From the NCBI GenBank assembly GCA_964036045.1, contig OZ038384.1, positions 40,340,844-40,404,843 of the forward strand: a DNA stretch of 64,000 nucleotides, written 5' to 3'. Each line of letters starts with the position of its first letter. Positions within the stretch are counted from its first letter, which is position 1. Source of the DNA: Eutreptiella sp. 'Long Island Sound 2002' (taxonomy: Eukaryota > Euglenozoa > Euglenophyceae > Eutreptiales > Eutreptiaceae). The translations under genes and the position numbers were made by a program. Shown here in pieces: positions 7,054 to 58,795 of the stretch. The notes beneath the pieces are model-generated. The model did not search any database. It was not told the origin of the DNA and saw nothing but the letters and a program-made list of their open reading frames with translations.

Positions 7054-7290
7054 AAAGTTGTCATGATAGTATATCTCTATGCTCACCCATGATATCCGCT
7101 CATGGTTCAATACACAAATGATTGGAACCATTTGCGAACAATTCCCCCACTTGGATCCCCAATCAGGTGCATGAAGATACCTTCGCCACTCATATCTACA
7201 TGCCCCATGAAAATGGGAGTGCACTCATGGATCTCTTTGCCAAACATACCATGAGCAATACATACGCGGTAGACTTAGTCTAGCGCTTTG
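7054..7290 (-). repeat. Dispersed repeat R1, copy A, distal part
   Basis: The reverse complement matches 51410-51640 closely: the stretches around AGACTAAGTCTACCGCG, GATCCATGAGTGCACTCCC and ATATACTATCA are shared with scattered substitutions. The match stops abruptly at about 7054. The rest of this copy is at 32259-33338. The two pieces are contiguous in copy B, so they were separated by the 25-kb insertion between them. Confidence 0.88.
7274..7290 (+). repeat. Left target-site duplication of the giant LINE
   Basis: The 17-base sequence CTTAGTCTAGCGCTTTG occurs here and again, perfectly, at 32259-32275. In the uninterrupted R1 copy it is present once, as the reverse complement at 51410-51426. 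This is the expected signature of target-primed insertion. Confidence 0.93.
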
Positions 7291-7314
7291 TGCCAGGCAG
7301 GCAGGCAGGCAGTC
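7291..7314 (+). repeat. 5' terminus of GL with (AGGC)n
   Basis: The first bases after the left TSD are TGCCAGGCAGGCAGGCAGGC, a four-unit AGGC microsatellite, followed by AGTC. It has no counterpart at the 3' end, so these are not terminal inverted or direct repeats. Confidence 0.7.
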
Positions 7315-8880
7315 GCGCGATCGCAGCAGACAAATAATACAAAACTAAGAAAACGACGCACCGCCAGCAAAAATAAAGCGCAAAATCGTTTTTTCCGACC
7401 TCAGAAACCCCCCAAAAAATTTTACGCCGCTGTTTGGCGAGGTCGCAAAATTTAGGACACTCACAAAACAAAGACGAACAATAGAGTCGCGACGGCGAAG
7501 AACCTGAGCGTTGCATGCTCCAAAACACCTAGCAAAGTGCGTGTCCTAGACGCTAGGGACTTGTGCACGCTCCACAAACAAAGAAGAAGAAAAGAGGCGA
7601 ACACCAAAAACCAGCAAGCCACGACGACGAAGACAAGAACAAAGCGACCGCCGAGCCACCTAGCAAAGTGCGTGCCATAGGAGCTAGGCGGCATGTGCGC
7701 GTCAAAAAAAAAAAAAAAAAAAGAGAGAAGGAGACGCAACAAAAAGAGAAACACCAAACCACAAACAAAAAAGACGCGACCACGGACCACGGGAAAGCGA
7801 GGTATGGCAACCAAGTATGTTACGGCCCCATGCGTCATACATATCGTATCCACCGCTACATATACGTGGATGAGAAAACCAAGTATGTTGCAAAGGAGGG
7901 CGCCCAAGGGACAACACCGCACGCAAAAAAAAAAAAAAAGAACGACGAACCGCCACGCACGTCAAAAGGCACGCCCGCAAACACAAACCACAACCATATA
8001 TCCCCCATATTTCTTCCTCCATAGGCCCCGACCGCCGCGAGAAAAAAAAAAAAAAATTCCACAAAAGCGCAAAAGGTATGGGGCGGCCACGGACAAAGGG
8101 GAAACAATGAAAAGGCGAACAAGCGAACGTTCACCAACCACGAGGAAACAACGGTACGGCGAGCAAGTATGTTAACGATACGAGGGAGGGCGCCAAAGGG
8201 ACGGACCACGCACACACGCACACACATAAACAAGACCGCAAGGAGCGAGAAGACGGAGACAAGAGCAAGGAAAAACAAGGTATGAACCCCACACCGCCCC
8301 GCCCGCAAACACACACACGCTCTCGCTATAGGGAATGACCACGTACCACGGGGAAACAATGGTATGGAGGTATGACGAACAAGTATGTTAAAAATGCGAG
8401 GGAAGGCGCCAAGGGGACGAAAACACAAACGCACACAAAGCCGCAAGATGCACGAAGACGGAGACGAGACAAAAGAAAGTCATGGTATGCAACCCCATCC
8501 CCGCCCCACCCACAAACAAACACACGCTTTCTCTATAGGGGACGGCAACAAGAAGCGGCACAAGGTACAACAAGTATGTTGAGAAAAAAAAAAAAAAACA
8601 CGAAACCGCCATCCACGCCCTCTCTATAGGGGAAACGAAATGCGGAGAGGTATGTTATCGAAGACGCAGCGAGAAAAAAAAAAAAACACGAGGGAGAAGA
8701 CACAAACCACAACACGCAAAAAAAAAAAAAAAAAAAAAAACAAAAAGGACCTGCGCACGCTCTTTCTCAACAGGGGAAGAAAACATGATGGGACGAAAGG
8801 ACAGGTACGTACCACGCATCACACATGCCACGCATCTCTGCTACGCATCTACAGGACCTCTTCTTCTGCCTTTTGAAACA
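7315..8880 (+). repeat. GL 5' region: degenerate monomers and poly-A runs
   Basis: No protein is recognisable. Short phrases recur: AAGTATGTT at about 7816, 7884, 8167, 8380 and 8573; an upstream GGAAACAA(C/T)GGTA; a downstream GAGGG(A)GGCGCCAA(A/G)GGGAC; and CTCTATAGGGGA-like boxes at about 8321, 8528, 8621 and (weaker) 8760. Six plus-strand A runs of 12-24 bases punctuate it (near 7706, 7925, 8042, 8584, 8673, 8718), with no T runs. The layout resembles the tandem promoter monomers in the 5' UTR of some mammalian L1 elements, but this is an analogy only. Confidence 0.6.
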
Positions 8881-8989
8881 TGCCGACGACCGACGACGAG
8901 AACCAGCCAAGGTATGACACACCACACCCCACCAACCACACACCGCGAGCACACGCACGCGCACGCACGACAGCCACACCGAGCGCGAC

Positions 8990-9004
8990 CCCCCCCCCCC
9001 CCCC
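8990..9004 (+). repeat. Poly-C tract
   Basis: A run of about 15 C follows GAGCGA just ahead of the tandem array. Further C runs occur near 11502 and 16262. They could be assembly- or polymerase-error hotspots. Confidence 0.8.
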
Positions 9005-9115
9005 AGGCCACCCACACCAACACGAAGGGCCACACAGCGCACACACACACACCAGGGCCAAGGGGAAGGGCACCCGGAAGACACACCCACCGCAACACCA
9101 CACCACACCACCACC

Positions 9116-11360
9116 GGCAGCGAAACCCAGCCAGGAGTGGCGGGGAGTAGCACACAGGAACCTCCGCCAGGAGAGGCGAGGGACCAACCACACCAGCCAC
9201 AAACCCACCACACACGCCACCGCCGCACGCCGCACGCCGCACACCACACACCGCACACCACGCACCACCGCCGACAGCGAAACCCAGCCAGGAGTGGCGA
9301 GGGACCAACAACCAACACACCACCGCCACACACCACACACCACCGCCGCCAGCGGACCCCAGCCAGGAGTGGCGGGGACCGCCCACCACCACCGGCAGCG
9401 AAACCCAGCCAGGAGTGGCGGGGAGTAGCACACAGGAACCTCCGCCAGGAGTGGCGAGGGACCAACCACACCAGCCACAAACCCACCACACACGCCACCG
9501 CCGCACACCACACGCCGCACACCACACACCGCACACCACGCACCACCGCCGGCAGCGAAACCCAGCCAGGAGTGGCGGGGAGTAGCACACAGGAACCTCC
9601 GCCAGGAGTGGCGAGGGACCAACAACCAACACACCACCGCCACACACCACACACCACCGCCGCCAGCGGACCCCAGCCAGGAGTGGCGGGGACCGCCCAC
9701 CACCACCGGCAGCGAAACCCAGCCAGGAGTGGCGGGGAGTAGCACACAGGAACCTCCGCCAGGAGTGACGAGGAAACAACAACCAACACACCACCGCCAC
9801 ACACCACACACCACCGCCGCCAGCGGACCCCAGCCAGGAGTGGCGGGGACCGCCCACCACCACCGGCAGCGAAACCCAGCCAGGAGTGGCGGGGAGTAGC
9901 ACACAGGAACCTCCGCCAGGAGTGGCGAGGGACCAACCACACCAGCCACAAACCCACCACACACGCCACCGCCGCACGCCGCACGCCACACGCCGCACAC
10001 CACACACCGCACACCACGCACCACCGCCGGCAGCGAAACCCAGCCAGGAGTGGCGGGGAGTAGCACACAGGAACCTCCGCCAGGAGTGGCGAGGGACCAA
10101 CAACCAACACACCACCGCCACACACCACACACCACCGCCGCCAGCGGACCCCAGCCAGGAGTGGCGGGGACCGCCCACCACCACCGGCAGCGAAACCCAG
10201 CCAGGAGTGGCGGGGAGTAGCAAACAGGAACCTCCGCCAGGAGTGGCGAGGGACCAACAACCAACACACCACCGCCACACGCCACACACCACCGCCGCCA
10301 GCGGACCCCAGCCAGGAGTGGCGGGGACCGCCCACCACCACCGGCAGCGAAACCCAGCCAGGAGTGGCGGGGAGTAGCACACAGGAACCTCCGCCAGGAG
10401 TGGCGAGGGACCAACCACACCAGCCACAAACCCACCACACACGCCACCGCCGCACGCCACACGCCGCACACCACACACCGCACACCACGCACCACCGCCG
10501 GCAGCGAAACCCAGCCAGGAGTGGCGGGGAGTAGCACACAGGAACCTCCGCCAGGAGTGGCGAGGGACCAACAACCAACACACCACCGCCACACACCACA
10601 CACCACCGCCGCCAGCGGACCCCAGCCAGGAGTGGCGGGGACCGCCCACCACCACCGGCAGCGAAACCCAGCCAGGAGTGGCGGGGAGTAGCACACAGGA
10701 ACCTCCGCCAGGAGTGGCGAGGGACCAACAACCAACACACCACCGCCACACACCACACACCACCGCCGCCAGCGGACCCCAGCCAGGAGTGGCGGGGACC
10801 GCCCACCACCACCGGCAGCGAAACCCAGCCAGGAGTGGCGGGGAGTAGCACACAGGAACCTCCGCCAGGAGTGGCGAGGGACCAACCACACCAGCCACAA
10901 ACCCACCACACACGCCACCGCCGCACGCCACACGCCGCACACCACACACCGCACACCACGCACCACCGCCGGCAGCGAAACCCAGCCAGGAGTGGCGGGG
11001 AGTAGCACACAGGAACCTCCGCCAGGAGTGGCGAGGGACCAACAACCAACACACCACCGCCACACGCCACACACCACCGCCGCCAGCGGACCCCAGCCAG
11101 GAGTGGCGGGGACCGCCCACCACCACCGGCAGCGAAACCCAGCCAGGAGTGGCGGGGAGTAGCACACAGGAACCTCCGCCAGGAGTGGCGAGGGACCAAC
11201 AACCAACACACCACCGCCACACACCACACACCACCGCCGCCAGCGGACCCCAGCCAGGAGTGGCGGGGACCGCCCACCACCACCGGCAGCGAAACCCAGC
11301 CAGGAGTGGCGGGGAGTAGCACACGGGAACCTCCGCCAGGAGTGGCGAGGGACCAACCAC
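9116..11360 (+). repeat. 157-bp tandem array with B-A-A higher-order structure
   Basis: The landmark GGCAGCGAAACCCAGCCAGG starts at about 9116, 9394, 9551, 9708, 9865, 10029, 10186, 10343, 10500, 10657, 10814, 10971, 11128 and 11285 (a GACAGCG variant at 9272). Nearly all spacings are 157 bp. The exceptions are 122 (9272-9394) and 164 (9865-10029). Units are of two kinds. Type A contains CAACCAACACACCACCGCC and GCCAGCGGACCCCAGCC. Type B contains AACCACACCAGCCACAAACC and a CGCACACCA-rich tail. From 9394 the order is B-A-A four times, giving a 471-bp higher-order period. The array has plus-strand TAGs, and its long open minus-strand frames are compositional. Confidence 0.92.
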
Positions 11361-11640
11361 ACCACACACCACCCACAACCCCGCCAACACACCACCACCG
11401 CACACCACACACCCACACACCACACACCACGCACCACCACCGCAGGACCAGAGGAGGGGGCGACACGCCCGCAAGCAACACAGCCAGGAACAGCGAACAC
11501 CCCCCCCCCCCACCACCACCACCCCACCCCGGAGAGACGGGACACCAGCCACCGCAAACCGCACAGCGAAAAGGGGGGCGGGACGAAAAGGGCCCACGGG
11601 GGGCGCCGGCGAGGGACCCAACCTCAGGGGTTTGGGGGCC
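11361..11640 (+). other. CA-rich spacer after the tandem array
   Basis: Low-complexity ACC/CAC sequence with a C13 run near 11502-11515. It is probably a decayed extension of the array. No ORF here has recognisable content. Confidence 0.5.
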
Positions 11641-12060
11641 CCCCCGGTGACCGTATCGGCCCCACCTGAGCACACGCAATAAGGTGGGATACGCCCGGGA
11701 CCGTTGGTCAGCGGCCCGCGGTGGCACCGGCCTGGGGGGGTGACCAATGGGCCTGACCAAGAGCACTCCCCACGGCACGTACTGCGGTACGGGCCCAGCG
11801 AGGGGCTGCGGGTAGGGCACACCGTCCATCGGGGCAGGCAAGAGACGCGCCTGTCCCGCGAGGACTCCCCAGCGACCCACAGTGTACCCGACCCCGGTGT
11901 GGGGAATGGCTGGAGTACCTGGCTACGGAACAGGTCCATGGACGGCATCCGTACAACAGAGTTACACCCTGACGGGGAGTGCAAGCACCGGCTCCCCCAC
12001 GGGGAAACACCAGGGGAAGGGACCCGAGCCGGCGACAAGGACCCCCCCCACACACCACAG
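11641..12060 (+). other. Unique-sequence island with a possible hairpin in GL
   Basis: This stretch is less repetitive than its neighbours. CCCACCT at 11661-11667 pairs with AGGTGGG at 11682-11688, leaving a 14-base loop, and a smaller inverted pair (GTAC...GTAC) lies near 11780-11795. An ORF beginning at 11704 runs through it into CA-rich DNA but looks non-biological (Pro, Thr, His). A structured RNA element is possible; this is weak. Confidence 0.3.
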
Positions 12061-15000
12061 CCGGGAAGGCCCGGGCACGACACCGCCCCAAGCGACACGG
12101 AAAAGAGACAGAAGGAGGAGGGCACACGCAAAGGGGACAGCAAGGGGACGCACCACCAACAGACCCCAGCCAAGGGGGGCGGGGAACCACACAGCCGAGA
12201 CAGGGGGGGGGGGGCACGACACACAGCCCCCACACCAAACAGGGCCGCCAAGCCACGCCCGCAAAGGCGAGGGCAGGCGCCCCAACGCACCACCAACACA
12301 CCGCACACACGCCCGAGCGTGCACACAACACACACCCCCACAACCGCCACCGACACGAGCCCCACAAGCGCACACCACACACCAAAGCACAGGCGCCGCC
12401 CGCACCACACACGCAACACACACAAACCCAAACAACAGGAACCCAGCAACCCGCCGGGGGGACTGCAGGGCCGCCAGAAGCCGCTAGGACGCAAAGGAGG
12501 ACCCACCAAGCCCGCAGCCAGGAGGGGCGAACGGCCACACCCAGTAACACCCGAACGGCCACGCCCAACACCAGGACCGGGCACTACGACACCCACACCA
12601 GCACCGCCACCAACGCCCAAACCGGACGCCACGACACCCTCACCAGCGGACACACCCGAAACCAGCGGAAGCACCATCGGCAACACCAGCGACCCCAGCA
12701 CCCACCAACAACAAACCAACACGAAAAGCCACCCAACACTGCCCAACGACCGCACCCAACCGATCCGGTCCCCCACCGGCTCGCACCCAGAACCACCGCC
12801 ACCGACATCCACGCCATCGGAAACACCAACACCGCCAAAAATCAAGCCAGCACAACACCCTCACCAACACCGTCACCACCGGCACCAACGCCTACGACAC
12901 CTACGCATGCCACCGCCGGTTCCAGCACCTACATCACCCAAGCCAACGGCATCAAGCACACCATCGCCGGCAACACCCCACCATCAGCGTCGCCACCAGC
13001 AACCTCTGCCACCGGAGGACACCGAAACCGCCACAGCCACCGCCACCGCCACAGGTGAGCCAACAAACCACCAAGCCCCGGCCAGGGGAAGCGAGGGCAC
13101 GCGCCCGGAACCACCATGCAATCCCCGGCGACACCCACACCACCGGCGCCGCCAACACCACCCTCACCCACGACACCACCCGGAGCAACACCTACGCCAC
13201 CTACACCAACAGCAGCACCAGCAGACCACACCACCTACTGCACACCCCCCCAGACAGAGCCACAGAAACCGACCACCGCCCTGAACGCAAGCCGCGGACC
13301 ACCCACACACAGACCCACGCCAACCACCACCAGCATCGGCAGCGTCCGAGACGCCGAGAACCATAGCGACACCCACAACGACCTCACCACCGGCATCACC
13401 GACACCGACACCGGCAATACGGCCTCAGCACCGACAAACCAGAGCGTCAACGGCAATCGCCACGGCAACACCGCTCGGTACGACACCATCGGCATCAACA
13501 ACACCAAGGGAGCCAACACACAGGCCAGCGACACCCATGGGTACCTCCACCAGGAGTGGCGAGGTCCCACCCCCGCCGTCAGAACACCACCATCCACCAG
13601 GGCAACACCTGCAGCGCCCACATCGGCCGCAGCTCCACCGGCGGCGCCCTCGCCAACACCGTCACCAACACCGCGACGGCCAGCCACGAGTGGCACGCCC
13701 GGAACCGCCGACCACCCAAACACAGGCCGCGCCCAGCACCAACACCAACAACGCCCACGCCAACAGACCACCACAACACACGCCAACCACCAAGTAACAC
13801 ATAAGGCACCCTCGCCTTCGGCAACACCAACGCCACCAACACCCACGGCACTATCCACACCACCACCAACCCCACCAACGGCGGGCCGAGGTGCCGTCAC
13901 CTACAACGCCCACAACACCACCACCACGGCCCCGCCACCTAGGGCAACCCCACCAACGGCGTCACCAAGGACGCCAGCACGGCTAGCGAACGAACGCCAC
14001 CGAGCCCTCAGCCAGGAGAGGCGAACGCCCGCACCCAGCAACACCCGAACGGCCACGCCCAGACCCAGGGCCAGGAACTGCGACACCCGCACCGCCGCCA
14101 GCACCTAAACCGAACACCACAGCACCCTCACCAACGGGGACGCCCGGAACCAACAACGGACCAACAGCGGCCAAGTTACACCCAAGGCGTTCCAACCGCG
14201 CCACCCACCGGCCCGCACCCAGAACCACCACCACCACCAGCAACAGCCACTGACAACCCACACACAGACCCACACCAACCACCAGCAGCATCAACAACAT
14301 CAGCGACACCGTGAACCATAGCAGCGCCCGCAACGACCTCACCACCGGCACCACCGACGGCGCCACCGGCAGTGCGACCTCACCGACAGCAACCCGGAGC
14401 ATCCCCCATCCCGCGTCCCGGTGAGACACCATCGGCAGCAAGGACACCGAGGGGGCCAAGGCCAACCCACCAGCCAACGACGCACGTGGGAACCTCCGCC
14501 AGGAATGGCGAGGTCCCCCCTCCGCCGTCAGAACACCGCCAGGGCAGCACTTACAACACCCTACAACGCCAACACACACAGCTCCCCCGGCAGCACCCCC
14601 ACCAACGCCAACACCGGCACCACCGACAGCGGCAACACGGCGACACCACCACCCAACCGCAGCAAGGTCACCCTAAACCGCAACCGCAGCAACACCTGTT
14701 ACTACGGACCCACGGACAGCCGACACCACCAGGACCACAGACGGGCCAAACACCAGCCACGAATGGCACGCCCGGAACCACCGAACACCAGCACACAGGC
14801 CACCGGACCACCGCGAGACACACCACCGCCCCTAACACCCCTAACACCACCACCACGACCCCGGCACAGAGTAACACCTAGGGCGCCCCCATCGACGACA
14901 CCACCCAGGACACCACCACGGCTGGCGAACAAACGCCACCAGCGCAGCCCACCAGGCCCCCAACCAAGGGTAGAAACAACAACGCCACACGCCATCGCAC

Positions 15001-16290
15001 CCACCGCATCGAAATCACCCGGAGCAACGTCAACATCAACCAGGGGTCCCGACCACCCACCCAAGCAGCACAAAACACCACAGCAACACCACCACACCCT
15101 CACCACCAGCGACACCACCGCCAGCACCCTCCGCCAGGAATGGCGAGGAGCAGGCCCAACAGCGCGGACCCACCCAACGTCCCCGGCACCCTCACCATCG
15201 GACCGTCACCACCGGCGCCGACCCCCAACACACCACCGTCACCAACGCCACCGACCCCGGACGCAAAAATCACACAGCCCGCACACACGGCACCAGCCAG
15301 AGCAACGCCGACACCACTCCCGGCCAACTCACACGAACACCACCGGAAGCACCACCGTCGACCGAACACCACGGCGACCCCAGGGTACGAGTCCCCCCCA
15401 CCATCTGCACGGCCAGCGACGCCGTCACCGGCACCAACCGGAACACCGACAACGACAGCCTCACCAACAACCGACACCCCCCTACCGCTGCCACCCACCA
15501 GTCACGCCACCCGCCGTCAAAGCCACCCACCAATGCCGCACCCCGAACCACACTTACACCCGAAACCGGCACCAGCACGCCCGGCCGAACCGTCAATGGC
15601 ACCACCGCCATGGCACCGTCTACGCTCACCACCGCCACCACCACCCCACGCGAGACCAGGAACCCCCGCCGTCGCCAACGGCCTCAACGAGCACCGACAC
15701 CACCAACACCACCACCGCCGGACAGGGACTACCCACAAACCAGGAACATCTCCACCACCAACAACCAATACACCACCCGCGGCACCCCACCATCGCCGAC
15801 ACCACCACGGCACCCATCACACCTCCACCACCGGAGGCGACGTGGGCCACACCACCCGTCAACTACAGCACCCTCGCCACCACCGCCACATCCGGCCCAC
15901 GAACGTTACCGCCGACAACACCACATACGCCCATACGTCACCCACGCCATGCTCACCGACCATCACCTCGTCATCAGAGACACCAACACCACCGGCGACG
16001 ACGACAGCGACAACAGCTGACCCACCAGCTAACCACCATCAATCATAGCCCAGCACCAGCTTCATCTACTCTAACGCCCATACCACCCTCGCCAACAGCG
16101 CCGCCACCGACACAATCATCCACTCCGGCGCCCACACCACCCTCACCACCAACATCACCAACACCACCACCCCCAGGGTCAGGGCCCGCGGGAAAAAGAA
16201 CGGCAGAGCGAGCACGCCACCACCCGCACGCGTCGCCCACCCTATCGTACACCGCTCCGCAACACGCCCCCCCCCGCTTCCCCTGACAGG
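12061..16290 (+). repeat. CA-rich degenerate repeat region of GL
   Basis: About 4.2 kb of C/A-rich DNA with diverged duplications. 12527-12650 resembles 14010-14140 (AACACCCGAACGGCCACGCCC). 13310-13440 and 13531-13620 resemble 14269-14400 and 14484-14560, about 955 bp apart. Copies of the GCCAGGAGTGGC hairpin recur at about 13549, 14498 and 15136. Plus-strand ORFs (11704-13284, 13116-14108, 14421-16286, 15140-16048) encode Pro/Thr/His/Arg-rich text in all frames. Some Gly-Asn-Thr-rich runs recur in shifting frames, so a decayed repetitive protein is possible. I do not support any of these ORFs as a functional gene. Confidence 0.5.
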
Positions 16291-16299
16291 GCGTGCGCT

Positions 16300-20311: not shown

Positions 20312-21187
20312 CGGGGCAAGGGCCGAGGGCACAAGCCTCCACAGCCCCGGCCCGCCCCCACCGAGGCCACCATCAACCTCCTCGACCTCAACCACCCGGC
20401 CGTCACATACTCCAAGGACGCCACAACCGCCCTCCAAGAGCTCCCGATGGCACAGGGGCCGGGGTGGGTCCCCCACCTCCTCACCTTCCAGGAACAAGGC
20501 CTACAGCGCGACGACCCCCCGGAAACCACCCCCATATATACCCCGGACCAGAAAGCGTACAAATGCTACTGGCACAAGGGGACCCCCCTATACGCCCAAA
20601 CCGGCATCCACGTCCACCTCGTCCACCACCTCAGCGTCCCAGGGAGGCTAGGTGTCTATGAGGTCGTCGGGGACGGATGGCAACTCAACGTCATCAACAC
20701 CCACGTCCCCTTCGGCGAAGCCACGGAACCCTTCCTCCAGGCCCTGGCCGAGGCGTACCGCCAAATGGCCATGCTCGCCCCCACAGTCATCATCGGCGAC
20801 ATGAACGCCGCCCCCACCCCAGCGGACCGAGGAGGACAGGCCACGGCCCAGGACCAAGCAGTCCGCGACACCATCGAAATGCTGGGGCTCGTGGACCTAA
20901 CAGCCAGCCTCGAAGGCCAACCATCCCACTTCCCCCACCAAACGGATGCCGCCCCATCCCGCATCGACGTATGCTATGGCGACCCCACCACCATCATCCG
21001 AGCGGAGGCCCGATATGGACCCCTCCCGCTGGGACCCACAGGCCATAGCCCCCTGCACATCCGCCTCACCATCCCCAACCTTCCCCCCAGCCCCCCAGAA
21101 GATGCGGACCAAGGCCTACCACCCCCCCTGAAGATATGCCCCCGCTGCATGACAAGCATGCCTGGTCCCAATATCACAGGGCCATAG
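20312..21187 (+). CDS. GL APE-type endonuclease
   Basis: AP-endonuclease-like domain that would nick the target DNA to prime reverse transcription. Motifs in order: LLTFQEQ near 20470-20490 (catalytic Glu of the QE motif), VINTHVPFG near 20691, IIGDMNAAP near 20790-20815 (the GDxN motif), SRIDVCYGD near 20957-20980, and GHSPLHIRL near 21040-21065 in place of the usual SDH. The first ATG is at 20447, but conserved text begins by about 20370, so the protein is either translated by readthrough from ORF1 or starts at a non-ATG codon. It ends 52 bases inside the RT ORF. RT is in the -1 frame, and a C7 run at 21122-21128 lies in the overlap zone. Confidence 0.85.
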   Translation, partial: RGKGRGHKPPQPRPAPTEATINLLDLNHPAVTYSKDATTALQELPMAQGPGWVPHLLTFQEQGLQRDDPPETTPIYTPDQKAYKCYWHKGTPLYAQTGIHVHLVHHLSVPGRLGVYEVVGDGWQLNVINTHVPFGEATEPFLQALAEAYRQMAMLAPTVIIGDMNAAPTPADRGGQATAQDQAVRDTIEMLGLVDLTASLEGQPSHFPHQTDAAPSRIDVCYGDPTTIIRAEARYGPLPLGPTGHSPLHIRLTIPNLPPSPPEDADQGLPPPLKICPRCMTSMPGPNITGP

Positions 21188-24100: not shown

Positions 24101-25662
24101 CACTCCACCACTCCTGCCACACACCGGAGCACCGAACACAAACCCTCACATGCCACGACCTAAACCCCGACACAGCCTACATCCTCCACTACATCTACTC
24201 CTACCTCACACAAGGACAGCCGGAGCAGGGACTCATAGCCCTGTCCCCCCAAGCAAAGCACATCATCTCCAAAGGAATAGGGGTGTACGCCACCCCCATC
24301 CTACAGCCCACAACCCCAGTAGCCCACCTCGCCACGGGCCTTACCATATACGCCTACCTGCCCATGAACCCATGCCGCCTCCCACAACCATCACCGGCGG
24401 ACCGGCTCTTCTTCACCGACGCCTCAGGCGAATCCGCCCTCACGCCCATCACCGGGGGGGCCACCCTGCAACTAACCCACACCGGGGAACACTACCACAT
24501 GGACCACCACACGGGCCACACCACCTATGGGGCCTCTTCCCACGGGGAGCTAGGGGCCATGGCCGACGCCATCACCGAGGTCGCGGCCCACCTACCCGCC
24601 CACTCCCCGCACATCGTCCGGGTCTGGTTCGTGGTAGACGCCACTGTCGACACGCACCTGCTCCTCCGCATAGCAAGGCAACCACTTCACAAAGCAACCG
24701 CGACGAGCCTCGGCACCCAGGCACTGCTACTCTGGAAAGCCCTACGCAGCCTTCCCCCCTACGTCCAACTCCACATCGTGAAACAAGAGTCCCACAGGCA
24801 CCAATACGGAAATGGTAAGGTCGACAACCAGGCAGTACACCAGCGCACAACACACCTACCAGCCCTCCAGATCCCTGACCTCGGCCGCAACCACACACAC
24901 CTCCAACACGTGCCCCCTGTACCCGAGCCCCATCAGACCCCGGACTGGGTACCAGAGGACGCCCCCTATTCCTCCCACGACAGAGCGTACCACTACCCCA
25001 ACCCCGTCCAACATCTAGCCCGCGTCCTCGGCGACGCAGACAGCCGGGCGCACATCCAGGAGCTCCAGGACAGACTGCAAGTCCCCCTCTACCACTCAGC
25101 GCTCCGCCCAGCAAACGTCCCAGCCCACCTCCAGAAACGACGCATCCAGCTCCTCAGGGAGCAACTGCCTTTCCTCACCAGGGTCGCCAGATGGCTCGCC
25201 CGCAAGCACATCCACGTCCCCGACGAACACACCCGTTGCCCATGCGACCACACCACCCCGGAGGACTGGGAACACTTCAAGAAATGCCCCCTCCATACGG
25301 ACAGGGACACCCTAGTGGGCTGGTCCCCGGCGGAAACCCTGCGGCAACACGAAGGATGGCCAGCCCACAGCCACGCACACCAGGCCACCGAACACCTCTT
25401 CCGGGACCCCCTGATCAAAGAAGCCACCATGAGAGGGGCAGTGACACAGGCCCTGCACCGACACCTCACCAAACACACGGAAAGCCCCATGGAAGCAGCA
25501 GCACACCTCCAGCTAGAAGCGGTCCGCAGAGCAGCAGCCCAAATGGTACACCGCAAGCACCTCCTGCTAACACACGCGGAACAACTCACCGACCCCACCG
25601 CCAGGGAACACATGCAGCGTCTCATCCATTACCATGCCGTGCATGACCCAGACGTCCACTAA
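21136..25662 (+). CDS. GL reverse transcriptase, RNase H and zinc finger
   Basis: A 1508-residue ORF. The RT spans about residues 200-500. It has the KTPGYDGLPAE segment, YKKGDWANPDNWRPI, IIASLDVKGAF (motif A Asp near residue 350), VPQGGAEGP, and GFADDTN (motif C, residues 445-449). RNase H follows at about residues 1090-1235: FFTDASG, SSHGELGAMADA, FVVDATVD and NGKVDNQ give the Asp/Glu/Asp/Asp set. A C-terminal zinc finger, CPCDHTTPEDWEHFKKC (residues 1368-1384), is the form usual at the end of LINE ORF2 proteins. The RT-to-RNase H distance (about 590 residues) is long. The ATG at 21136 overlaps the APE ORF, and the stop overlaps the next ORF by 29 bases. All catalytic residues are intact. 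Confidence 0.93.
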   Translation: MPPLHDKHAWSQYHRAIDRARRIQPDPTDLLTAMRTAAVACGFQQHPHTDDDQPPTALGNMLHDLWHAKQQLATLLHTDTPQTRRQIHHCRTHIAQIRADLQRWHIHRQQRIAQEHERYAQHELPYKAIRHLNDAMTDTGHRTITTVRQEGGSLTNDPATVLQATQDSFLRQHTPTQDTLDPDTQAKIDRLPRVFNHAQRRHLEKRPFTIHEVRKAIHSLRQHKTPGYDGLPAEAYYHLPAHLLRVLAHRLWDIVTGRTPLPPDWANVVRPLYKKGDWANPDNWRPIVCAVTEVKIVWTILLRRIRPHLDPHIPASLLGAIPGRSPHEAILLQDTIADMDPVDLIIASLDVKGAFPNTPWLLLEAVWKRLGLPFYNFTSDYIRTRKYTVRTGAGLTPFLEPGSGVPQGGAEGPFLYLLVTLPLALAIEQDYPAYAPYCLLSPLVGFADDTNLTVAHTPHDPHAPDPGPTVTQQANDLLDVTVSYLSHNNLIVHPTKSVAMIKGSATPPTLGPQGPPMQVVTTTTHLGVVQAANPEDATLPPKLQSHLTHLPRYASPTTKALSLSHQSLAYYLTGVLNASIGFQALHLTHPTTALQPATRAVTKAWAAHGGWPTSIPTRAIRAAWPHYGDAIGDEVKAAYTRHTALLLHRMTHNHSPEVREVTAIRLQAAQRARNTCPRWVLHQTGMPTNMNTRLWNHLQLLLPSPNHAILTNHTCPEKGPLAVLCGDLHHHPKGTIHTIDLVGASITVVYVTLAQMRVLHHSGAHHTPFLQLPEWPQYRLFHHYLTQTARTAGHTLPGSKDMRKAYREFTRQHPRPIPETPPYAPTGSKHEPVPPVTGPVPPLTLLLAPNEAKPTQTTVIHHGAKWRIPKHHMTARDLPKVPQDSQSMPRTCWACDPEAPTAPWPVLHLIARHHTHPTTHLPPQAYAWIAPWFHRTDTNPTVAWNPDHAPKWLFTTTPTWPRPDPAGVAIRYSMYEPGRTGKHEHPYYPLHHSCHTPEHRTQTLTCHDLNPDTAYILHYIYSYLTQGQPEQGLIALSPQAKHIISKGIGVYATPILQPTTPVAHLATGLTIYAYLPMNPCRLPQPSPADRLFFTDASGESALTPITGGATLQLTHTGEHYHMDHHTGHTTYGASSHGELGAMADAITEVAAHLPAHSPHIVRVWFVVDATVDTHLLLRIARQPLHKATATSLGTQALLLWKALRSLPPYVQLHIVKQESHRHQYGNGKVDNQAVHQRTTHLPALQIPDLGRNHTHLQHVPPVPEPHQTPDWVPEDAPYSSHDRAYHYPNPVQHLARVLGDADSRAHIQELQDRLQVPLYHSALRPANVPAHLQKRRIQLLREQLPFLTRVARWLARKHIHVPDEHTRCPCDHTTPEDWEHFKKCPLHTDRDTLVGWSPAETLRQHEGWPAHSHAHQATEHLFRDPLIKEATMRGAVTQALHRHLTKHTESPMEAAAHLQLEAVRRAAAQMVHRKHLLLTHAEQLTDPTAREHMQRLIHYHAVHDPDVH

Positions 25663-26980
25663 CCCGCTCCGCGCCCCGCACGCGCCCCCCGTCTCCATCC
25701 ACAGGTCTCCAAGGCACCACCACAGCGCCCCGAGACCCGTCTCGCACCCAAGAAGCCACCCGGCACCGCCCAGTCCGGCCGAACCCAGCCAGGGCCAACC
25801 ATCCATCGACGTAGACGCGCAAGACCCCGGCAGCCCATCCAGCCCACCCCCCCCGGACCCGGGACACCCTCCCCTCACACCGGCCACCATCCGCGACCCC
25901 GACCTCCTCCGAGCGACCCTCCAAGACAGGGCCCCGACCACCCCCCTGGGCTGGTACCGCCTACAAGAGGACTGGACCAAGCTCACCGTCAAAGCCCTCC
26001 GGGACCTGACCACCCCAGGCAGCGGCCTCCACGAGACCATAGTAGACCTCGTGCTCTGGCGAGCCCGCAAACACACCCAGGGCCAGCCCATCTGGATCCC
26101 CCCCATCGAGTGGGGCCAGGCCCTGACGCACGACACCGGCAGCAACGTCACGCGTCGAGGGACCGTACGCCTACGGCGGGCCCAAGCGGAGACGGACCAC
26201 CCAGCGGACCCGAACCACCCGGAGCAGTGGGAACAGGCCACCGCGCCCAACCGCGACACCGCCCTCCGCGCCGCCGGCCTCCGCACCCCGGACGACGACC
26301 TCCCCCCCCCACCTACAGACAGTGACCACCCCCCGCCGGAGGTCTGGGTTACAGTCCTCGAGCGCGGCCACTACTACGTGATAGCCGCTATGGCTACGTC
26401 CCACGGCCCGCAATGGATCATCCAGGGGACAGACACCATGTTCGCCCCGGAGACCGCCCCACCAGGGGCAGTGGGGGACCCCACCACCCAGCACAGGATC
26501 CTCAGGGGTCTCCTCCAGCCAGGGGACACGCCCCCAGCCCGCGCCCTGGCCCAAATCACCTCAGGGAAGGCGGGCTACCACCTGGGATTGTCCATGCTCT
26601 GCCTAACCCACTGGATCCAGCGCCACTGGCCACCCACGGGGACCGTGCCCTGGGTTTGGGCCATCCCCACCGCCCACACACAAGTCGAAGCAGGCCCGGA
26701 CACACGACCAAACCCCCCCCCCAGGCCGCAGCAGTCCCTCACCTGCGGGTACCACGCCATCCACAGGGTCCTCAACCGCGCGGGTCTTAGCCCAAAGCTA
26801 GCATGCCCCCTTCCCACCACTGACCAAGAGGTCCACCAGATACGAACGCTCGTCTGCGAAATCCTTGCCGCGGCAGCAGAAGACGGCAAGCTTCTCCTCC
26901 AAACCGCCCGGCCTACAACTGCCCACGCAAGCGCGCAGCAAGCGGACACATACACCGGCGCAGCACAACCCCCCACATAA
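25634..26980 (+). CDS. GL Ulp1/C48-like cysteine protease (putative)
   Basis: A 448-residue ORF whose ATG lies 29 bases before the RT stop, an arrangement suited to termination-reinitiation. The N-terminal third is Pro-rich. The C-terminal half has, in order, GHYYVIAAM (His 246), IIQGTDTMF (Asp 267), PQQS (Gln 366-367) and LTCGYHAIHRVL (Cys 371). This is the His-Asp-Gln-Cys order of Ulp1/SENP (family C48) proteases, with Gln about five residues before Cys. That family cleaves ubiquitin-like modifiers or polyproteins. Cysteine proteases are known in a few LINE groups such as Dualen/RandI of green algae. The call rests on motif order alone; an unrelated fold is possible. It ends at a TAA, and the next ORF follows in the same frame after three codons. 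Confidence 0.6.
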   Translation: MPCMTQTSTNPLRAPHAPPVSIHRSPRHHHSAPRPVSHPRSHPAPPSPAEPSQGQPSIDVDAQDPGSPSSPPPPDPGHPPLTPATIRDPDLLRATLQDRAPTTPLGWYRLQEDWTKLTVKALRDLTTPGSGLHETIVDLVLWRARKHTQGQPIWIPPIEWGQALTHDTGSNVTRRGTVRLRRAQAETDHPADPNHPEQWEQATAPNRDTALRAAGLRTPDDDLPPPPTDSDHPPPEVWVTVLERGHYYVIAAMATSHGPQWIIQGTDTMFAPETAPPGAVGDPTTQHRILRGLLQPGDTPPARALAQITSGKAGYHLGLSMLCLTHWIQRHWPPTGTVPWVWAIPTAHTQVEAGPDTRPNPPPRPQQSLTCGYHAIHRVLNRAGLSPKLACPLPTTDQEVHQIRTLVCEILAAAAEDGKLLLQTARPTTAHASAQQADTYTGAAQPPT

Positions 26981-26989
26981 TCCCCGCCC

Positions 26990-29737
26990 ATGCCCCCCCC
27001 CTCTCGCTGCTCAACCGGAGACCCACACACGCCCACTATCGCGCGCACCCCCGGGCCCCGCGACACGGGCCTCCCCCACCCGCCCGAACACCAGCACACG
27101 CCCGCCACACACCCACCCACCGGCCACCCTTCACCGCCCCCCACACTCGACAACCCACACACACCCGCCAAGGGGAGCCCCACGCCCCGCGGCACGCCCA
27201 CCCCACCCAGTGGCCCGCCCACGCCCCCCACACACACCCCAGAGGACCCAGGCCCACCCCCCCCGGCCCCTGAATGCAGCCCACGCGAACTGTTCCCCCC
27301 CGCTGACACAAACCCACACGACCTCGCACATTGCAGGACCCGGGCCCAGCCGAGCCCAGAAAGAGAAGGCCGCAGCCCCGCGCCTCCCTCCCCCGCCGCA
27401 GCCGACCAGATCGGCCCGCCGGGCCGCCAGGTCACGACCGGGCCCCCCCAGCCGCCCGCCCCCAACCTACAACCCGGGGACATGCCCTCCATCCTCCCCG
27501 CCGTGGCCGCGGCAGAAGCCGCCGCCCGCAAGCCCGCCCGCATCACAGCCCAACCCGCGTCCACCACCTCCTCCTCGTCCTCAGCCTCGTCCACCTCCTC
27601 CACCTCATCCTCCGACCCCCCCCTCCCCGCCAAACTCATCCTCAAGGCCACGGCGAAAGCCAAAGCCGCGGCCGCACGCACCAACCCCCCAACCCCCACA
27701 CAGGCGACTCAGGCACCCCGGCAACCCACCGGGACGACCCCCGACCCGGCATCGACGCCCTCACACCTCCGGACAGAGGTACTCCTCAACCTGGAACCGG
27801 ACCCCAACCCCAAACCCGACCCCAAACCCAAACCGGACCCCAACCCCAAACCCAACCCCAAACCCAAGCCGGCGCCCACGCGACCACACACAACACCGCA
27901 TACGCAACGACACAAAACCACCCGATACCACCCCCGCCCAGACCCTCGCCCAAGCCAGGACCCCCCACCCACCACGACCCGCGCCCCCCTCCCGCCGGCA
28001 CCCACCACCACCGCGGAGACGGCCACCCAGCACGACCCCCTCCAAACCCTCGTCAAAATCCCCGTCATCAAACGCCCCGTCATCCATCCCCCACAAACCA
28101 CCACCACCGCCGGCCAAACCGACCCAGGGACGTGGGACCCCTCAACCATCGTCACCGTCAAGCCCGCCCCCCAACCCTTCCTCCATGCCCACCACATAGT
28201 GCAGCCCCGAGGACTGCCCACGATGCCCAACCCCCCACCCCCACAAGGGGGACCGGAAAACCCACAAGGACTCCATGGGCCATACCCGCAACACCAACCC
28301 CACCACTACACACACCACCACCACCAGCGGCCCCACCACCACCACTACCAACACCACCCCCACCACTACCACTGCCCACCGCCCTACCCCACCGGGCCGC
28401 AACCCCCCGTACACCAACAGCACCAGCGGACGGGATGGCAGCCGCCGAACGCCCCGCTCGCATACCCACCCCCCCCGTACCAGCCACCACCCCCGTACCA
28501 GCCGTACCCCCGAGGCCACCATTCGATGGCCGAGGGGGCCCCATGGACGACGGGGGATCTCCCCCCCCAACCAGCACCGCGTGACGCCCCGTACCCCCCC
28601 GGCCACCACCCGATGGCCGAAGGGGCCCCAAGGACGACGGGGGACCTCCCCCCCCAAGCGGCGCCGCGCGAGCCCCCCCAGAGGCCGCCGACGCTTCCGG
28701 ACTGGCCCGACTCGAGCGACGAGGGCCGGTCCCGCAAGCGACGGCGCTCCCGCTCCCCCCCCGCACGGCACACTCGCCCACGGCGCCCACACTCCCACCG
28801 CGCCTCAACCACCCACTCGCGCCGCTCCCGCTCCCCCAGGTACCACCACGACCCCCAGGGACCCCGCTCCCGTCGCTCCCGCTCCCCCGGGCTCCACCAC
28901 GAGCGCCACCGCCGCCCCATGTCCCCCTCCCCCTCCCCCCACCGGCCACCCAGCCCCCGCCACCACCACTCCCGCTCCCCCCGACGCAGCCAGGCACGCC
29001 GCCACCGCCCCACGTCCACCTCCCCCTCCCCCCACACGCCCCGCCGGGCTCCCCGTTCCCCCCGCCACCCGTACCCATCCACCACCCCCAGCCCCCGCCA
29101 CCACCACTCCCGCTCCCCCGGACGCCACCGAGCGCGCCACCGCCGCCCCATGTCCACCTCCCCCTCCCGCTCCCCCCTCCGCCCGTACCCGTCCTCCACC
29201 CCCAGCCCCCGCCGCCGCCGCTCCCGCTCCCCCGGGCACCGCCACCCCCGCCACCACCGCAGGTCCACATCTTCCCCCCGCCGCTCCAGGACCCCAGGCA
29301 CGGACCCCTCCCCCCCCCGGGCCCCCGCCTACCTCGCCTGGTGGTCTCCCTCCGCTCTGCAGGAGCTCCGCCGCTGGGTGAAATGGGCCGGGGGAGCGGG
29401 AAGACACAGAGGGGTACACACGGTGCATACCTTCGAGGAGGTGCGCACCCGCACCCCCGCAGACCCCAATGAGGCCGCCCCGGAGGCCATCATGCCGCAA
29501 GCGGCATGGGAGGCCCTCCTCCGCGATGCGGTCCAGGGCCTCCGCCCCCCCTACACCCCCCAAGCCCTCCGCCGGTGGCTCCAGGCCACCCACCCCCAAG
29601 CCTGGGCCACCGGCGCCCCCTCCCCACCCCGCCCCTCCCACCACCACCACACCAGGAAGGGGCAGGACAAGGGCAAGGGAAGGGCAAGGGACACCAAGGA
29701 CCACACAGGCAAGAGGGCACGGAAGGACCCCAAGTGA
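26990..29737 (+). CDS. GL Pro- and Arg/Ser-rich (SR-like) protein
   Basis: A 915-residue ORF in the same frame as the protease ORF, 9 bases past its TAA. Sections in order: Pro/Thr/His linker (1-190); a Ser run and Ala/Lys patch near 195-235; an alternating (D/N)PKP(D/N)PKPK repeat near 265-295; His-rich tract near 435-470; a 2-copy repeat of about 27 residues with (S/P)MAEGAP near 505-565; an extended Arg/Ser-dipeptide domain near 580-775 (RSRSP, SRRSRSP, HSRSP repeats); a compact, Trp-containing C-terminal domain near 780-890; and a Lys-rich tail. RS domains are hallmarks of splicing factors and bind RNA or nuclear speckle proteins. A retroelement-borne SR-like protein could aid nuclear RNA handling; this is inference. 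Confidence 0.65.
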   Translation: MPPPSRCSTGDPHTPTIARTPGPRDTGLPHPPEHQHTPATHPPTGHPSPPPTLDNPHTPAKGSPTPRGTPTPPSGPPTPPTHTPEDPGPPPPAPECSPRELFPPADTNPHDLAHCRTRAQPSPEREGRSPAPPSPAAADQIGPPGRQVTTGPPQPPAPNLQPGDMPSILPAVAAAEAAARKPARITAQPASTTSSSSSASSTSSTSSSDPPLPAKLILKATAKAKAAAARTNPPTPTQATQAPRQPTGTTPDPASTPSHLRTEVLLNLEPDPNPKPDPKPKPDPNPKPNPKPKPAPTRPHTTPHTQRHKTTRYHPRPDPRPSQDPPPTTTRAPLPPAPTTTAETATQHDPLQTLVKIPVIKRPVIHPPQTTTTAGQTDPGTWDPSTIVTVKPAPQPFLHAHHIVQPRGLPTMPNPPPPQGGPENPQGLHGPYPQHQPHHYTHHHHQRPHHHHYQHHPHHYHCPPPYPTGPQPPVHQQHQRTGWQPPNAPLAYPPPPYQPPPPYQPYPRGHHSMAEGAPWTTGDLPPQPAPRDAPYPPGHHPMAEGAPRTTGDLPPQAAPREPPQRPPTLPDWPDSSDEGRSRKRRRSRSPPARHTRPRRPHSHRASTTHSRRSRSPRYHHDPQGPRSRRSRSPGLHHERHRRPMSPSPSPHRPPSPRHHHSRSPRRSQARRHRPTSTSPSPHTPRRAPRSPRHPYPSTTPSPRHHHSRSPGRHRARHRRPMSTSPSRSPLRPYPSSTPSPRRRRSRSPGHRHPRHHRRSTSSPRRSRTPGTDPSPPRAPAYLAWWSPSALQELRRWVKWAGGAGRHRGVHTVHTFEEVRTRTPADPNEAAPEAIMPQAAWEALLRDAVQGLRPPYTPQALRRWLQATHPQAWATGAPSPPRPSHHHHTRKGQDKGKGRARDTKDHTGKRARKDPK

Positions 29738-29931
29738 GGGCAGGCACACGCAGGGACAGGGCGCCGGAAGCGGCACCACATGGGGTCAGGACACCACCCA
29801 AGAACCAGGAAGGAACGGGAACGGGGACCAAGACACGGAGGAAAAGGGCACCACGACAGCCCCAGAGGACACGAGACCAAGGCACAGGCCCCCAGGGAGG
29901 GCAACCCCACGGACCGTCACGCGACCACACC
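29738..29931 (+). other. Spacer between SR-like ORF and small ORF
   Basis: Purine-rich (GGAACGGG, GGACCAAGACACGG) sequence with no recognisable motif. A plus-strand frame runs through it into the small ORF but gives a low-complexity Arg/Gly/Thr reading. Confidence 0.35.
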
Positions 29932-30347
29932 ATGGGCTATAAGGGCCGGGCTGCGCTACCGTCGCGGTTTGACGCAGAGTATTGCTACGGGGGCTTGATC
30001 TCGGCTGGTCTCACGTCCGTGAGGGCGTCCGTCACCAACCTGTTGCGTCCAGTGGAGGAATGGCACTGCGGCGGCGCACCGATCCCGTCCATGATGAATA
30101 TCGAGCATCGCAAGGGGAAGCGAAACGCTGTGATCGATCGCGAAGGCTTTGGGGCTGCTGGACGGTGCCCCCCTTCAACGCCATCTCCGAGCGCCGTGAA
30201 GACTGGAAGTACCAAGGATACTACCGATGCCCCGGACCCCAGCAGTCCAGCACCGGAGATATGGACATCCCCCTGACCCTACAGTGTGAGCTCATCCCTA
30301 CCGGCGGCACCGACCCGGACCCTGCCAGCGCAGCCGAGCTACAGTGA
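29932..30347 (+). pseudogene. Small frameshifted ORF in GL 3' region, unknown
   Basis: From the ATG at 29932 one frame gives sensible text (GYKGRAALPSRFDAEYCYGG, then LLRPVEEWHCGGAPIPSMMN) until about 30165. The sensible reading then moves to the neighbouring frame (PFNAISERREDWKYQGYY, CELIPTGGTDPDP) and ends at TGA 30345-30347. The switch falls on a C6 run near 30168-30174. Codon use is less C-biased than in the other GL ORFs and T is more frequent, so this may be a captured host exon or a separate gene. I recognise no family. A structured RNA is the main alternative. Confidence 0.45.
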
Positions 30348-32258
30348 AAGCCATTCGCCACTCAAACAGCGTTCGGAAGCCACCTCGACCGTCCGACTCC
30401 TGATGTCTGTTTGTCTGCCTTGGAGAAGGAACGCTTTTCCTACACCCCGAGTACACCTGCCTGTCTGCGAGGCCCGGTGAAGATTGAGTCCATGGGTGAG
30501 AGTCAGTGTGCACGCCCCAAGGACACCGTGATCATTCAGCAGAATTTCCCGAAGACCTAACCGACCCACACAGGCCAGGCTGACCTCCACTGACCCACCG
30601 CGGCACCACGCGAGACCACGGCACACCACACCACAGCGCGCCACAGAGCAACGCACCACAGCACGACGCGACGCGACGCGGCACAGAGCGGCACAACACG
30701 ACACAACTGACCCTAACCTGAGGGACTAACCGAAGCCAGCCACCGCACACCCAGGAAGGCGCCGCGCCACCACGCCACACACCGGCACCACAGGCCACAC
30801 ACGGGACCACAGAGCGCCAGGCGACAACGGTGACGGACCACCCAGAAGATTACAGCCGGCACCGCGGAGGGGTAAGGACACGAGCAACCCCAGCCCCCTA
30901 ACCCAAAACCACAAGCAGCCGCCTGGCGCAGCCGCCCAGCCGGCAGAGCCAGGACCTAACCCAGCAAGAAGGGGCGCCGAGCCCACAGTGTACAGAGCCC
31001 ACCCGACCCATGGGGCCGGAACATGGCCACACAGAACGCAACTGAAAACACCAGCCCGGAAGACAACACTGAATACAGGCCAGTGCGTGCGCCAGCCCAG
31101 GGAAGGCAGAGGGAGGAACAGGCAAGCCCCCCCCCCCAAAAAAAAAAAAAAGGAGGGGGGAAGGGGAAAAGGCACGAAAACAGCCCACAGCCGCCCAACC
31201 ACCCGCCAACACCACCACAGGCGGCCAGGCCCCCCCCCCAGAAAAAAAAAAAAAAAAGGGGGGGACCCCCGCAGAGGCACAGGCGAACCACCCACCCAAA
31301 ACCGGCAACACCAAGCCAGTAACAGCGGACCACGGGGAAAAGGAAAAAAAAAAAAAAGAGAGCCACCAGCCCAGCCCGAAAGAAAGGGGATGGAGGGACA
31401 GCGACCACAAAGCCCAAAAAAAAAAAAAAAGAAAAGAACAAACCAAAGCAAAAAAAAAAAAAAAAACACACCCCGACAACCCAGCCAAAACGGACTGGGC
31501 ACAGGCGAGACCCGGGCCCGGCACACAGGCCCACACCGCGCGCCGGAACCGGAAACGGCGGGGGGCAAGCGGGGCGCCCACGAAACCACACACGTCCCAA
31601 AAGCCGACCGAAACCGAAGCCAAACCACGAACACCACAAATAGCCGACACTAGGGGGACAACACCACAAATCGAGCCCAAAAACACCCACCCTAAACCCC
31701 AGCCAGGACAGACGGGGTTAACAAAACCCGCACCCAACCGCCAACCGGACCCAAACACAAACACCACACAACAGTAGGAAACCCAGTGCCCACAGCCCGG
31801 GCACTGAGGCAGCCCGTGCCATGCAGGTGACCCGGCCAAACGAGATCCGGAGCCCGGGGGTAAGGCTGCATCCTAAGGCCTGCGCTGCTTTGGGACTCGA
31901 GGCGGAGCGTGCGACACCCAAGCGCCTCGGAACCCTAGTACCAGGAACGTGCATGCACGCCTTGGGAACGGGATACGCCAGGAAGTCCGGTGAACCCCTA
32001 GGGTTCCGCCCAAAGGAGGGGACGTGCGCAAGCACGGGGGCACACCCTCCCGGCGAGACAAGTATGTCACGCTGGCGGCGATCAGCCCTCCCGGCGTAGC
32101 CCGGGGCCGCTTTGTTGGGGGCCAACAGTCAGGTCTAGCGGGAAGTAAGCCGCCTCCCCTCTTCACGCGCGAAGCCTCTTCCTGTTCGTCACAGGGGCGA
32201 CGCCAGGGGGAACCATGGGGCGCCTTCTCCACGACCGAGTGCACCTACCCTACCCTAC
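30348..32258 (+). other. GL 3' untranslated region
   Basis: About 1.9 kb with no supportable gene. 30560-31700 is CA-rich with at least five plus-strand A runs (near 31138, 31241, 31344, 31417, 31449). 31800-32240 is a more balanced, GC-rich stretch that may fold. It includes a GACAAGTATGTCAC phrase near 32058 that echoes the AAGTATGTT motif of the 5' monomers. The element ends CCTACCCTACCCTAC (32244-32258), with no poly-A tail. Confidence 0.55.
32244..32258 (+). repeat. (CCTAC)3 3' tail of GL
   Basis: Three perfect CCTAC units directly abut the right target-site duplication. Short tandem 3' tails in place of poly-A are known in several LINE clades and arise during target-primed reverse transcription. 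Confidence 0.75.
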
Positions 32259-32275
32259 CTTAGTCTAGCGCTTTG
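32259..32275 (+). repeat. Right target-site duplication of GL
   Basis: CTTAGTCTAGCGCTTTG, identical over 17 bases to 7274-7290. Beyond it R1 resumes with AATTCCACAATTGGG, exactly as in copy B read on the minus strand. Confidence 0.93.
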
Positions 32276-58762: not shown

Positions 58763-58795
58763 CGGGCTGGCATCAAGCTTGGGGCGGATGAGCAA

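Follow-up and report, generated by a model that had tools for sequence, protein, structure and literature searches.

Can a single retrotransposon of the long interspersed nuclear element (LINE) type, which lacks long terminal repeats (LTRs), extend over 25 kb, when LINEs usually measure 4-8 kb? This question is raised by a stretch of 64,000 nucleotides of the euglenophyte Eutreptiella sp. 'Long Island Sound 2002' (assembly GCA_964036045.1, contig OZ038384.1, positions 40,340,844 to 40,404,843 of the forward strand), hereafter the window, in which a block of 24,968 bp (7291-32258) carries genes for an apurinic/apyrimidinic-type endonuclease (APE) and a reverse transcriptase (RT) on the plus strand. 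According to the evidence presented below, this block is very probably a single 25-kb APE-type non-LTR (LINE-type) retrotransposon. It is bounded by an exact 17-bp direct repeat, CTTAGTCTAGCGCTTTG, present at 7274-7290 as the left copy and at 32259-32275 as the right copy of a target-site duplication; apart from words repeated solely within the element, the window contains four groups of exact 17-mer direct repeats, of which this is one. The same word occurs once, as its reverse complement, at 51410-51426, in a second copy of the host repeat that lacks the element (50353-51637, minus strand). Indeed, joining the flanks with one 17-bp repeat gave a 1,286-bp alignment to the reverse complement of 50353-51637, with 87.6% identity and free of gaps for 100 bp on either side of the junction. 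This shows that the empty site is real; a first reading of the window, made from the sequence alone (hereafter the sequence-only reading), was right in describing a perfect 17-bp duplication and an in-window empty site. An assembly join as the source of the 25-kb block was ruled out by the duplication together with the empty site, since a join is not expected to produce such a duplication.

The plus strand of the block is strongly richer in A than in T and mostly richer in C than in G, with an AT skew that climbs at 7291 and a strand skew that is unbroken through most of the block. The A+C richness of the coding strand is extreme in coding and non-coding parts alike, with an AT skew of up to 0.95 in the 3' untranslated region (UTR).

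Other copies were sought in the 2.28-Gb host genome, for which the results are best-match lists, with a bias toward young intact copies, and not copy counts. The RT protein as query gave 37,646 first-look candidates; the best 31, which were scored, all matched it over its entire length with 99-100% identity. In the RT part, 29 copies differed from the window by a mean of 25.7 differences in 4,524 nt (0.57%). The first 1.4 kb of the element (42 rows among the best 40 of 2,488 candidates) matched 38 other places from within the first 63 nt, with 96-100% identity, and for seven of the 30 other RT places a 5' end was found 13.8-14.2 kb upstream on the same strand, both among the matches listed. 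At the other extremity, matches to the last 509 bp reached query position 505-509 in all 40 cases scored (the best 40 of 1,625 candidates). Both ends were found in eight of the ten other copies tried, with an end-to-end span of 24.94-25.36 kb. The distances between the end matches were 24,964 bp (C7:24.39 Mb), 24,960 bp (C7:24.21), 25,088 bp (C15), 25,248 bp (C23), 25,077 bp (C20), 25,085 bp (C4:106), 25,355 bp (C5), and 24,941 bp (C1:122.9). Interior collinearity was sampled at 10161-12169 in C23 (98.8%), at 11338-16847 in C1 (99.4%), and at 15790-19790 in C7:24.39 (99.6%). Furthermore, the region of about 19.6-27.2 kb was present in 29 other RT loci, with all or nearly all of it in 27 of them, and all six other copies tested for the region of 29.8-30.8 kb contained it. 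The eight copies with both ends support the view, already taken in the sequence-only reading, that LINE-type retrotransposition moved the whole 24,968 bp as a single unit.

Target-site duplications were assessed in ten insertions (the window, eight full-length copies, and one truncated copy), with the longest word common to both flanks as the measure; C17:20.3, C4:177.2, and L006, in each of which an end was not found, were left out. Words of 17, 16, 14, 13, and 13 nt were shared by the flanks of five insertions, namely the window, three full-length copies, and the truncated one, and none of 90 mismatched flank pairs used as a control reached 13 nt, the largest value being 9 nt, once. Further copies with the same 3' end and duplications of their own, to which the sequence-only reading had pointed as a check, were thus found, namely three of the eight full-length copies (16, 14, and 13 bp) and the truncated copy (13 bp). 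Counting against a uniform picture, the C5 copy shares 9 nt, a length also reached once in the 90 mismatched pairs, and the C23, C4, C15, and C20 copies share 7, 7, 7, and 4 nt, which is at chance level. Duplications are clear in five of the ten insertions, doubtful in one, and not above chance in four. Extra bases were present between the duplication and the 5' end in some of the clear cases (9 nt in C7:24.21 and 21 nt in C1), and the 5' junction of the C5 copy has 37 extra nt.

The 5' extremity itself is variable. Among the matches listed, the start fell at query position 22 (window 7312) in 18 of 42 rows and at position 1 in three, the window included. The first 21 nt, TGCC(AGGC)n (7291-7311, plus strand), were matched in full in two other listed rows only (C7:24.39 Mb and C7:24.21 Mb); they are not part of most copies listed, because the matches mostly begin beyond position 1. 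The two C7 copies lie on the same chromosome, have different target duplications, and both possess the 21-nt 5' addition. Perhaps a young sub-lineage inherited this addition, its RNA starting at or before it. Truncation at the 5' side was found within ORF2 (the second open reading frame, ORF) in two of the 29 other RT loci, at window positions 20556 and 21015. The copy truncated at 21015 ends like the others at its 3' side and shows its 13-bp duplication; no 3' end was found in the stretch covered for the copy truncated at 20556. Movement of the APE-RT part without the region of 7.3-16 kb, which the sequence-only reading had named as the case that would contradict it, was seen just as the apparently ordinary 5' truncation of these two loci.

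The enzymatic functions of the element are located in ORF2 (20312-25662, plus strand), which encompasses the APE (about 20312-21111), the RT (FADD at 22471), and a C-terminal Cys/His motif recognised by eye (25234), and which is interrupted in the window copy by a frameshift near 21.1 kb. The APE matched Pfam Exo_endo_phos (PF03372; E 3.3e-6) and, weakly, PDB chain LR1 (2v0s; E 0.06). Similarly, the RT matched Pfam RVT_1 (PF00078; E 8.2e-16), PDB 8c8j, an RNA-directed DNA polymerase (E 5.5e-13), and LINE-1 ORF2p (E 1.3e-12). An open frame of exactly 1782 amino acids was found for ORF2 in 25 of 31 matched places, and the homologous proteins P0001 and P0012 contain APE and RT in one protein; P0001 stands for a protein cluster with 758 member sequences. 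A possible RNase H (24415-24834, plus strand), the domain that follows the RT in some clades such as I, shows the D-E-D-H/D order by eye only, and a search of this whole stretch gave no Pfam or PDB match naming RNase H, as was the case for the corresponding piece of P0012. Hence, of the full plus-strand APE, RT, and RNase H set claimed in the sequence-only reading, APE and RT are confirmed, RNase H stays a motif seen by eye, and 'full' is too strong, as ORF1 to ORF3 are interrupted in the window. The RT part contained no stop codons in 29 copies, a set biased to the best matches, with 346 nonsynonymous versus 369 synonymous codon changes; this ratio of 0.94, versus 3.06 expected without selection (2.01 for transitions), shows that ORF2 is under purifying selection. 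A second family (P0012, P0015, and P0019) is about 49-51% identical in ORF2, with P0012 49% identical to the ORF2 query over 99% of the query and 469 member sequences in one cluster; it is possibly another giant LINE.

The coding anatomy was followed by means of a codon-usage score for which part of ORF1 and the RT part of ORF2 served as training set. This score was positive from about 16.3 kb and mostly so in one forward frame at a time up to about 26.9 kb, but became negative at 19.4-20.1 kb and close to the frame changes; in the low-complexity stretch that reaches to 29.7 kb it was patchy, and in the 5' leader and the 3' UTR it was negative. Three-base periodicity agreed overall with it. 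Frame changes occurred at about 18.87, 21.1, and 25.6 kb, the last being the overlap of ORF2 and ORF3. Homologues (P0027-P0030, P0001, and P0048) were free of the frame changes of the window at 18.87 and 21.1 kb and of its stop at 26978.

ORF1 (16423-20311, plus strand) comprises about 1,300 codons in other copies and contains a frameshift near 18.87 kb in the window, where P0027-P0030 align in two frames switching at that point. It gave no Pfam match at E<=0.01 (best match E 0.3), and its AlphaFold model was uninformative (predicted local distance difference test score, pLDDT, 29); its protein cluster P0030 has 509 member sequences. ORF1 ends with a TGA (20309-20311, plus strand) that is followed by CGG and is in frame with ORF2, a candidate type II readthrough site by its context and a downstream stem. 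A published account (PMC11166343) defines type II readthrough by a UGA with CGG or CUA directly after it, frequently accompanied by a stem-loop about 6-12 nt further on. CTGACG was found at the ORF1 stop in all 25 copies in which the site was located, of 29 examined; the four others include two that are truncated before the site. The longer word TGACGG was printed in 11 of 30 loci. Eight of 21 ORF1 homologues end exactly at the TGA stop, the rest being fragments or frameshifted, and in P0024 a Ser replaces the stop, so that a single protein joins ORF1 to ORF2. The 64 nt from 20317 onward fold with -24.6 kcal/mol (z -3.48), and in a longer stretch an inner helix begins 8 nt downstream of the stop and an outer helix directly after it.

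Judged from its sequence context, ORF2 is probably made by readthrough of TGA-CGG. Alternatively, ribosomes may restart at the first ATG of ORF2 (20447), the stretch between the stop and this position holding no in-frame ATG. Restart is known for other LINEs and an ATG is available; moreover, TGA followed by CGG is found at five of the 100 TGAs in the element, and an equally low downstream fold at nine of these 100 (the ORF1 stop being included in both counts) and at 20 of 359 coding-region tiles, which weakens the case for a dedicated signal. Restart is nonetheless rather unlikely. Readthrough is favoured over it because the first APE motif, NLLDLNH (20375; recognised by eye), precedes the ATG at 20447, and the UGA-CGG type II context, with its stem 8 nt on, is constant in all copies located.

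The start of ORF3 (25634-29737, plus strand) overlaps the end of ORF2, and in the window the frame is split by a stop (26978-26980) into 25634-26980 and 26990-29737. ORF3 was not seen whole in any other copy; P0048 and P0057, among others, read across the stop of the window, to 27742 at most (P0057), and ORF2 is joined to ORF3 in single proteins of other copies (P0014, P0134, P0152, and P0160, among others). By eye, the part at 25634-26980 displays an H..D..Q..C order like that of an Ulp1-type protease. An Ulp1-like protease in ORF3 was found neither in PDB, even with a profile, nor in Pfam, and the predicted structure had a pLDDT of 36. The APE and RT of the sequence-only reading were borne out; that reading had overlooked the signal for readthrough, ORF3, and the captured piece of a gene described hereafter.

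The 3' UTR (29738-32258, plus strand; 2.5 kb) ends in (CCTAC)n / (CCTA)n, a 3' end that is shared among copies with a variable tail length. It contains a frameshifted 3' (C-terminal) piece of a gene for pyrophosphate (PPi)-dependent phosphofructokinase (29902-30600, plus strand), recognised by NCBIfam (TIGR02477; E 8.5e-20) and PDB (1kzh; E 2.1e-12) and giving no Pfam match at E<=1. All six other copies tested contain this piece, gap-free and with 99.1-99.9% identity, and its capture must have preceded the spread of these copies, because all six have it. A separate insertion into the window copy was rejected, given the absence of a flanking direct repeat longer than 9 nt and the presence of the piece in the six other copies; it belongs to the element family. 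It probably brought its own 3' UTR along.

At the opposite side, a 5' leader of about 9.1 kb (7312-16422, plus strand) has no consistent coding frame, as the codon-usage score of every forward frame stays negative as far as about 16.3 kb. Repeat analysis revealed a tandem array in it, with about 13 copies of a 157-bp unit (9104-11442, plus strand). Three-base periodicity is moderate at 12.69-14.79 kb (4.8-7.2, like the weaker coding windows), where a decayed frame may be present.

Several observations weigh against a single 25-kb unit. The copy in the window is broken in ORF1, ORF2, and ORF3, and the composition bias is lost over the gene piece near 30 kb and over the last 450 nt or so. The copy at C17:20.3 Mb has the 5' end, with a 3' match that stops at 235 of 358; the one at C4:177.2 Mb has neither end at the spacing predicted from the window, the stretch 29833-30733 being present; and on C24 a 5' end (35.003 Mb) and a 3' end (35.0365 Mb) on the same strand are 33 kb apart. 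Moreover, the interiors of the copies were sampled piecewise, the leader being seen in parts in other copies. The C24 pair (G000:C24:35003482-35036529) is possibly a copy holding a nested insertion.

A composite, in which a normal-sized LINE (about 13-15 kb or less, from ORF1 to the tail) adjoins an unrelated leader by nesting or by neighbourhood, would accommodate the repeat-rich leader without a consistent coding frame, and self-nesting does occur in the element family: the C15 copy has flanks that are similar to the family (77% and 88%) and sits in an older copy at a position equivalent to about 28.76 kb. Such a composite is nevertheless highly improbable, as it is opposed by the 38 matches to the 5' 1.4 kb, by the distance of 13.8-14.2 kb between 5' end and RT in seven places, and by the full span in eight other copies; for these eight copies, a composite or nested origin is ruled out.

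It is equally hard to credit that another class of giant element (a giant LTR element, a Penelope-like Terminon, or a Polinton) carries a LINE-like RT here, even though the size is within the range given for Terminons and Polintons in the part available of a review of giant eukaryotic transposons (PMC6431247). These classes were rejected on the absence of an LTR pair and of terminal inverted repeats in the 24,968-bp window copy, on the absence of any Rfam match, such as hammerhead, at gathering scores in the 64-kb window, and on the APE beside the RT in one frame (in other copies), the variable-length duplications, the 5' truncation, and the common simple-repeat 3' end. In particular, the hammerhead motifs and the lack of an APE that characterise Terminons and Penelope-like elements contrast with the absence of an Rfam match and the presence of an APE here. 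A search against viral contigs gave no match. The assignment to the APE-type LINEs agrees with an RT of the non-LTR kind and an APE located N-terminally of it.

Comparison with known systems leads to the same placement. Like LINE-1 type (APE) elements, the element has APE and RT in one ORF, an ORF1 upstream, variable duplications, 5' truncation, and a shared 3' end; unlike them, it measures 25 kb and has a 9.1-kb leader with a tandem array, a third ORF, a CCTA-repeat tail, a likely stop readthrough, and a host gene piece in its 3' UTR. It differs from known APE-type LINEs in size and accessory parts. In the same part of the review (PMC6431247), giant Gypsy, Penelope-like, and Polinton elements are covered and non-LTR elements are mentioned for transduction only. 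Terminons, which are giant Penelope-like elements of rotifers of up to 40 kb, resemble the present element as giant retroelements with extra ORFs and 5' truncation, but are described there with hammerhead motifs and telomere attachment and without an endonuclease, whereas the element has an APE, no Rfam match, and duplications. The giant Gypsy LTR elements Burro and Ogre (PMC6431247) are giant retrotransposons too, Burro being drawn with tandem repeats, yet the element lacks an LTR pair and has an APE-type RT. Some of the Utopia and NeSL non-LTR elements, according to the part available of PMC4640811, carry an Ulp1-like protease, to which ORF3 shows an unconfirmed resemblance by eye; unlike the element, they have a restriction-like endonuclease, and many of them are target-specific. 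Among the titles listed for the literature on LINE size or anatomy, no LINE of 25-kb size was recognised.

The insertion is surrounded by genes or remnants of Gypsy-like LTR elements (2-2932, 33330-36056, 46846-48270, and 55838-59653). In addition, a further LINE-like frame encoding RT and RNase H (59862-63998; PF00078, E 5.7e-30; PF00075, E 4.3e-8) is cut by the end of the window. The window contains no spliced-leader pattern of the dinoflagellate kind, a negative of little weight.

From this anatomy, we infer how the element may propagate. Transcription, driven from the 5' leader or from upstream of it, would yield a single long RNA that extends from about 7312 to the (CCTA)n tail. Translation would give the ORF1 protein, and a minority of ribosomes would pass UGA-CGG to give an ORF1-ORF2 fusion with APE and RT; for ORF3, ribosomes would restart or shift frame where ORF2 and ORF3 overlap. 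Once the APE has nicked the target, target-primed reverse transcription by the RT would begin at the CCTA-repeat end of the RNA and leave duplications of about 13-17 bp, sometimes with extra bases at the 5' junction; incomplete copying would result in 5'-truncated copies. No gag-pol-like stop readthrough plan for LINEs is described in the portions of the literature consulted.

The length of LINEs is taken to be restricted to a few kb, in part since copying usually stops early. On balance, we lean, by a modest measure, toward an unrecognised lineage of giant LINEs. In this reading, the RT would copy 25 kb of RNA in one pass, readthrough of UGA would link a gag-like ORF1 to pol, in the way known from some RNA viruses, and ORF3 would be an extra module, possibly a protease that has a basic tail. 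If this is true, the P0012 family, about 49% identical in ORF2, would be a sister giant, and a high processivity of the RT would explain why young full-length copies are readily found. Young 25-kb copies, several with clear duplications, raise the known load of an APE-type element, and the processivity of its RT is worth measuring. The stop-codon arrangement, if functional, would amount to a gag-pol-like expression plan, and the shared piece of a host gene represents cargo kept through many rounds of copying.

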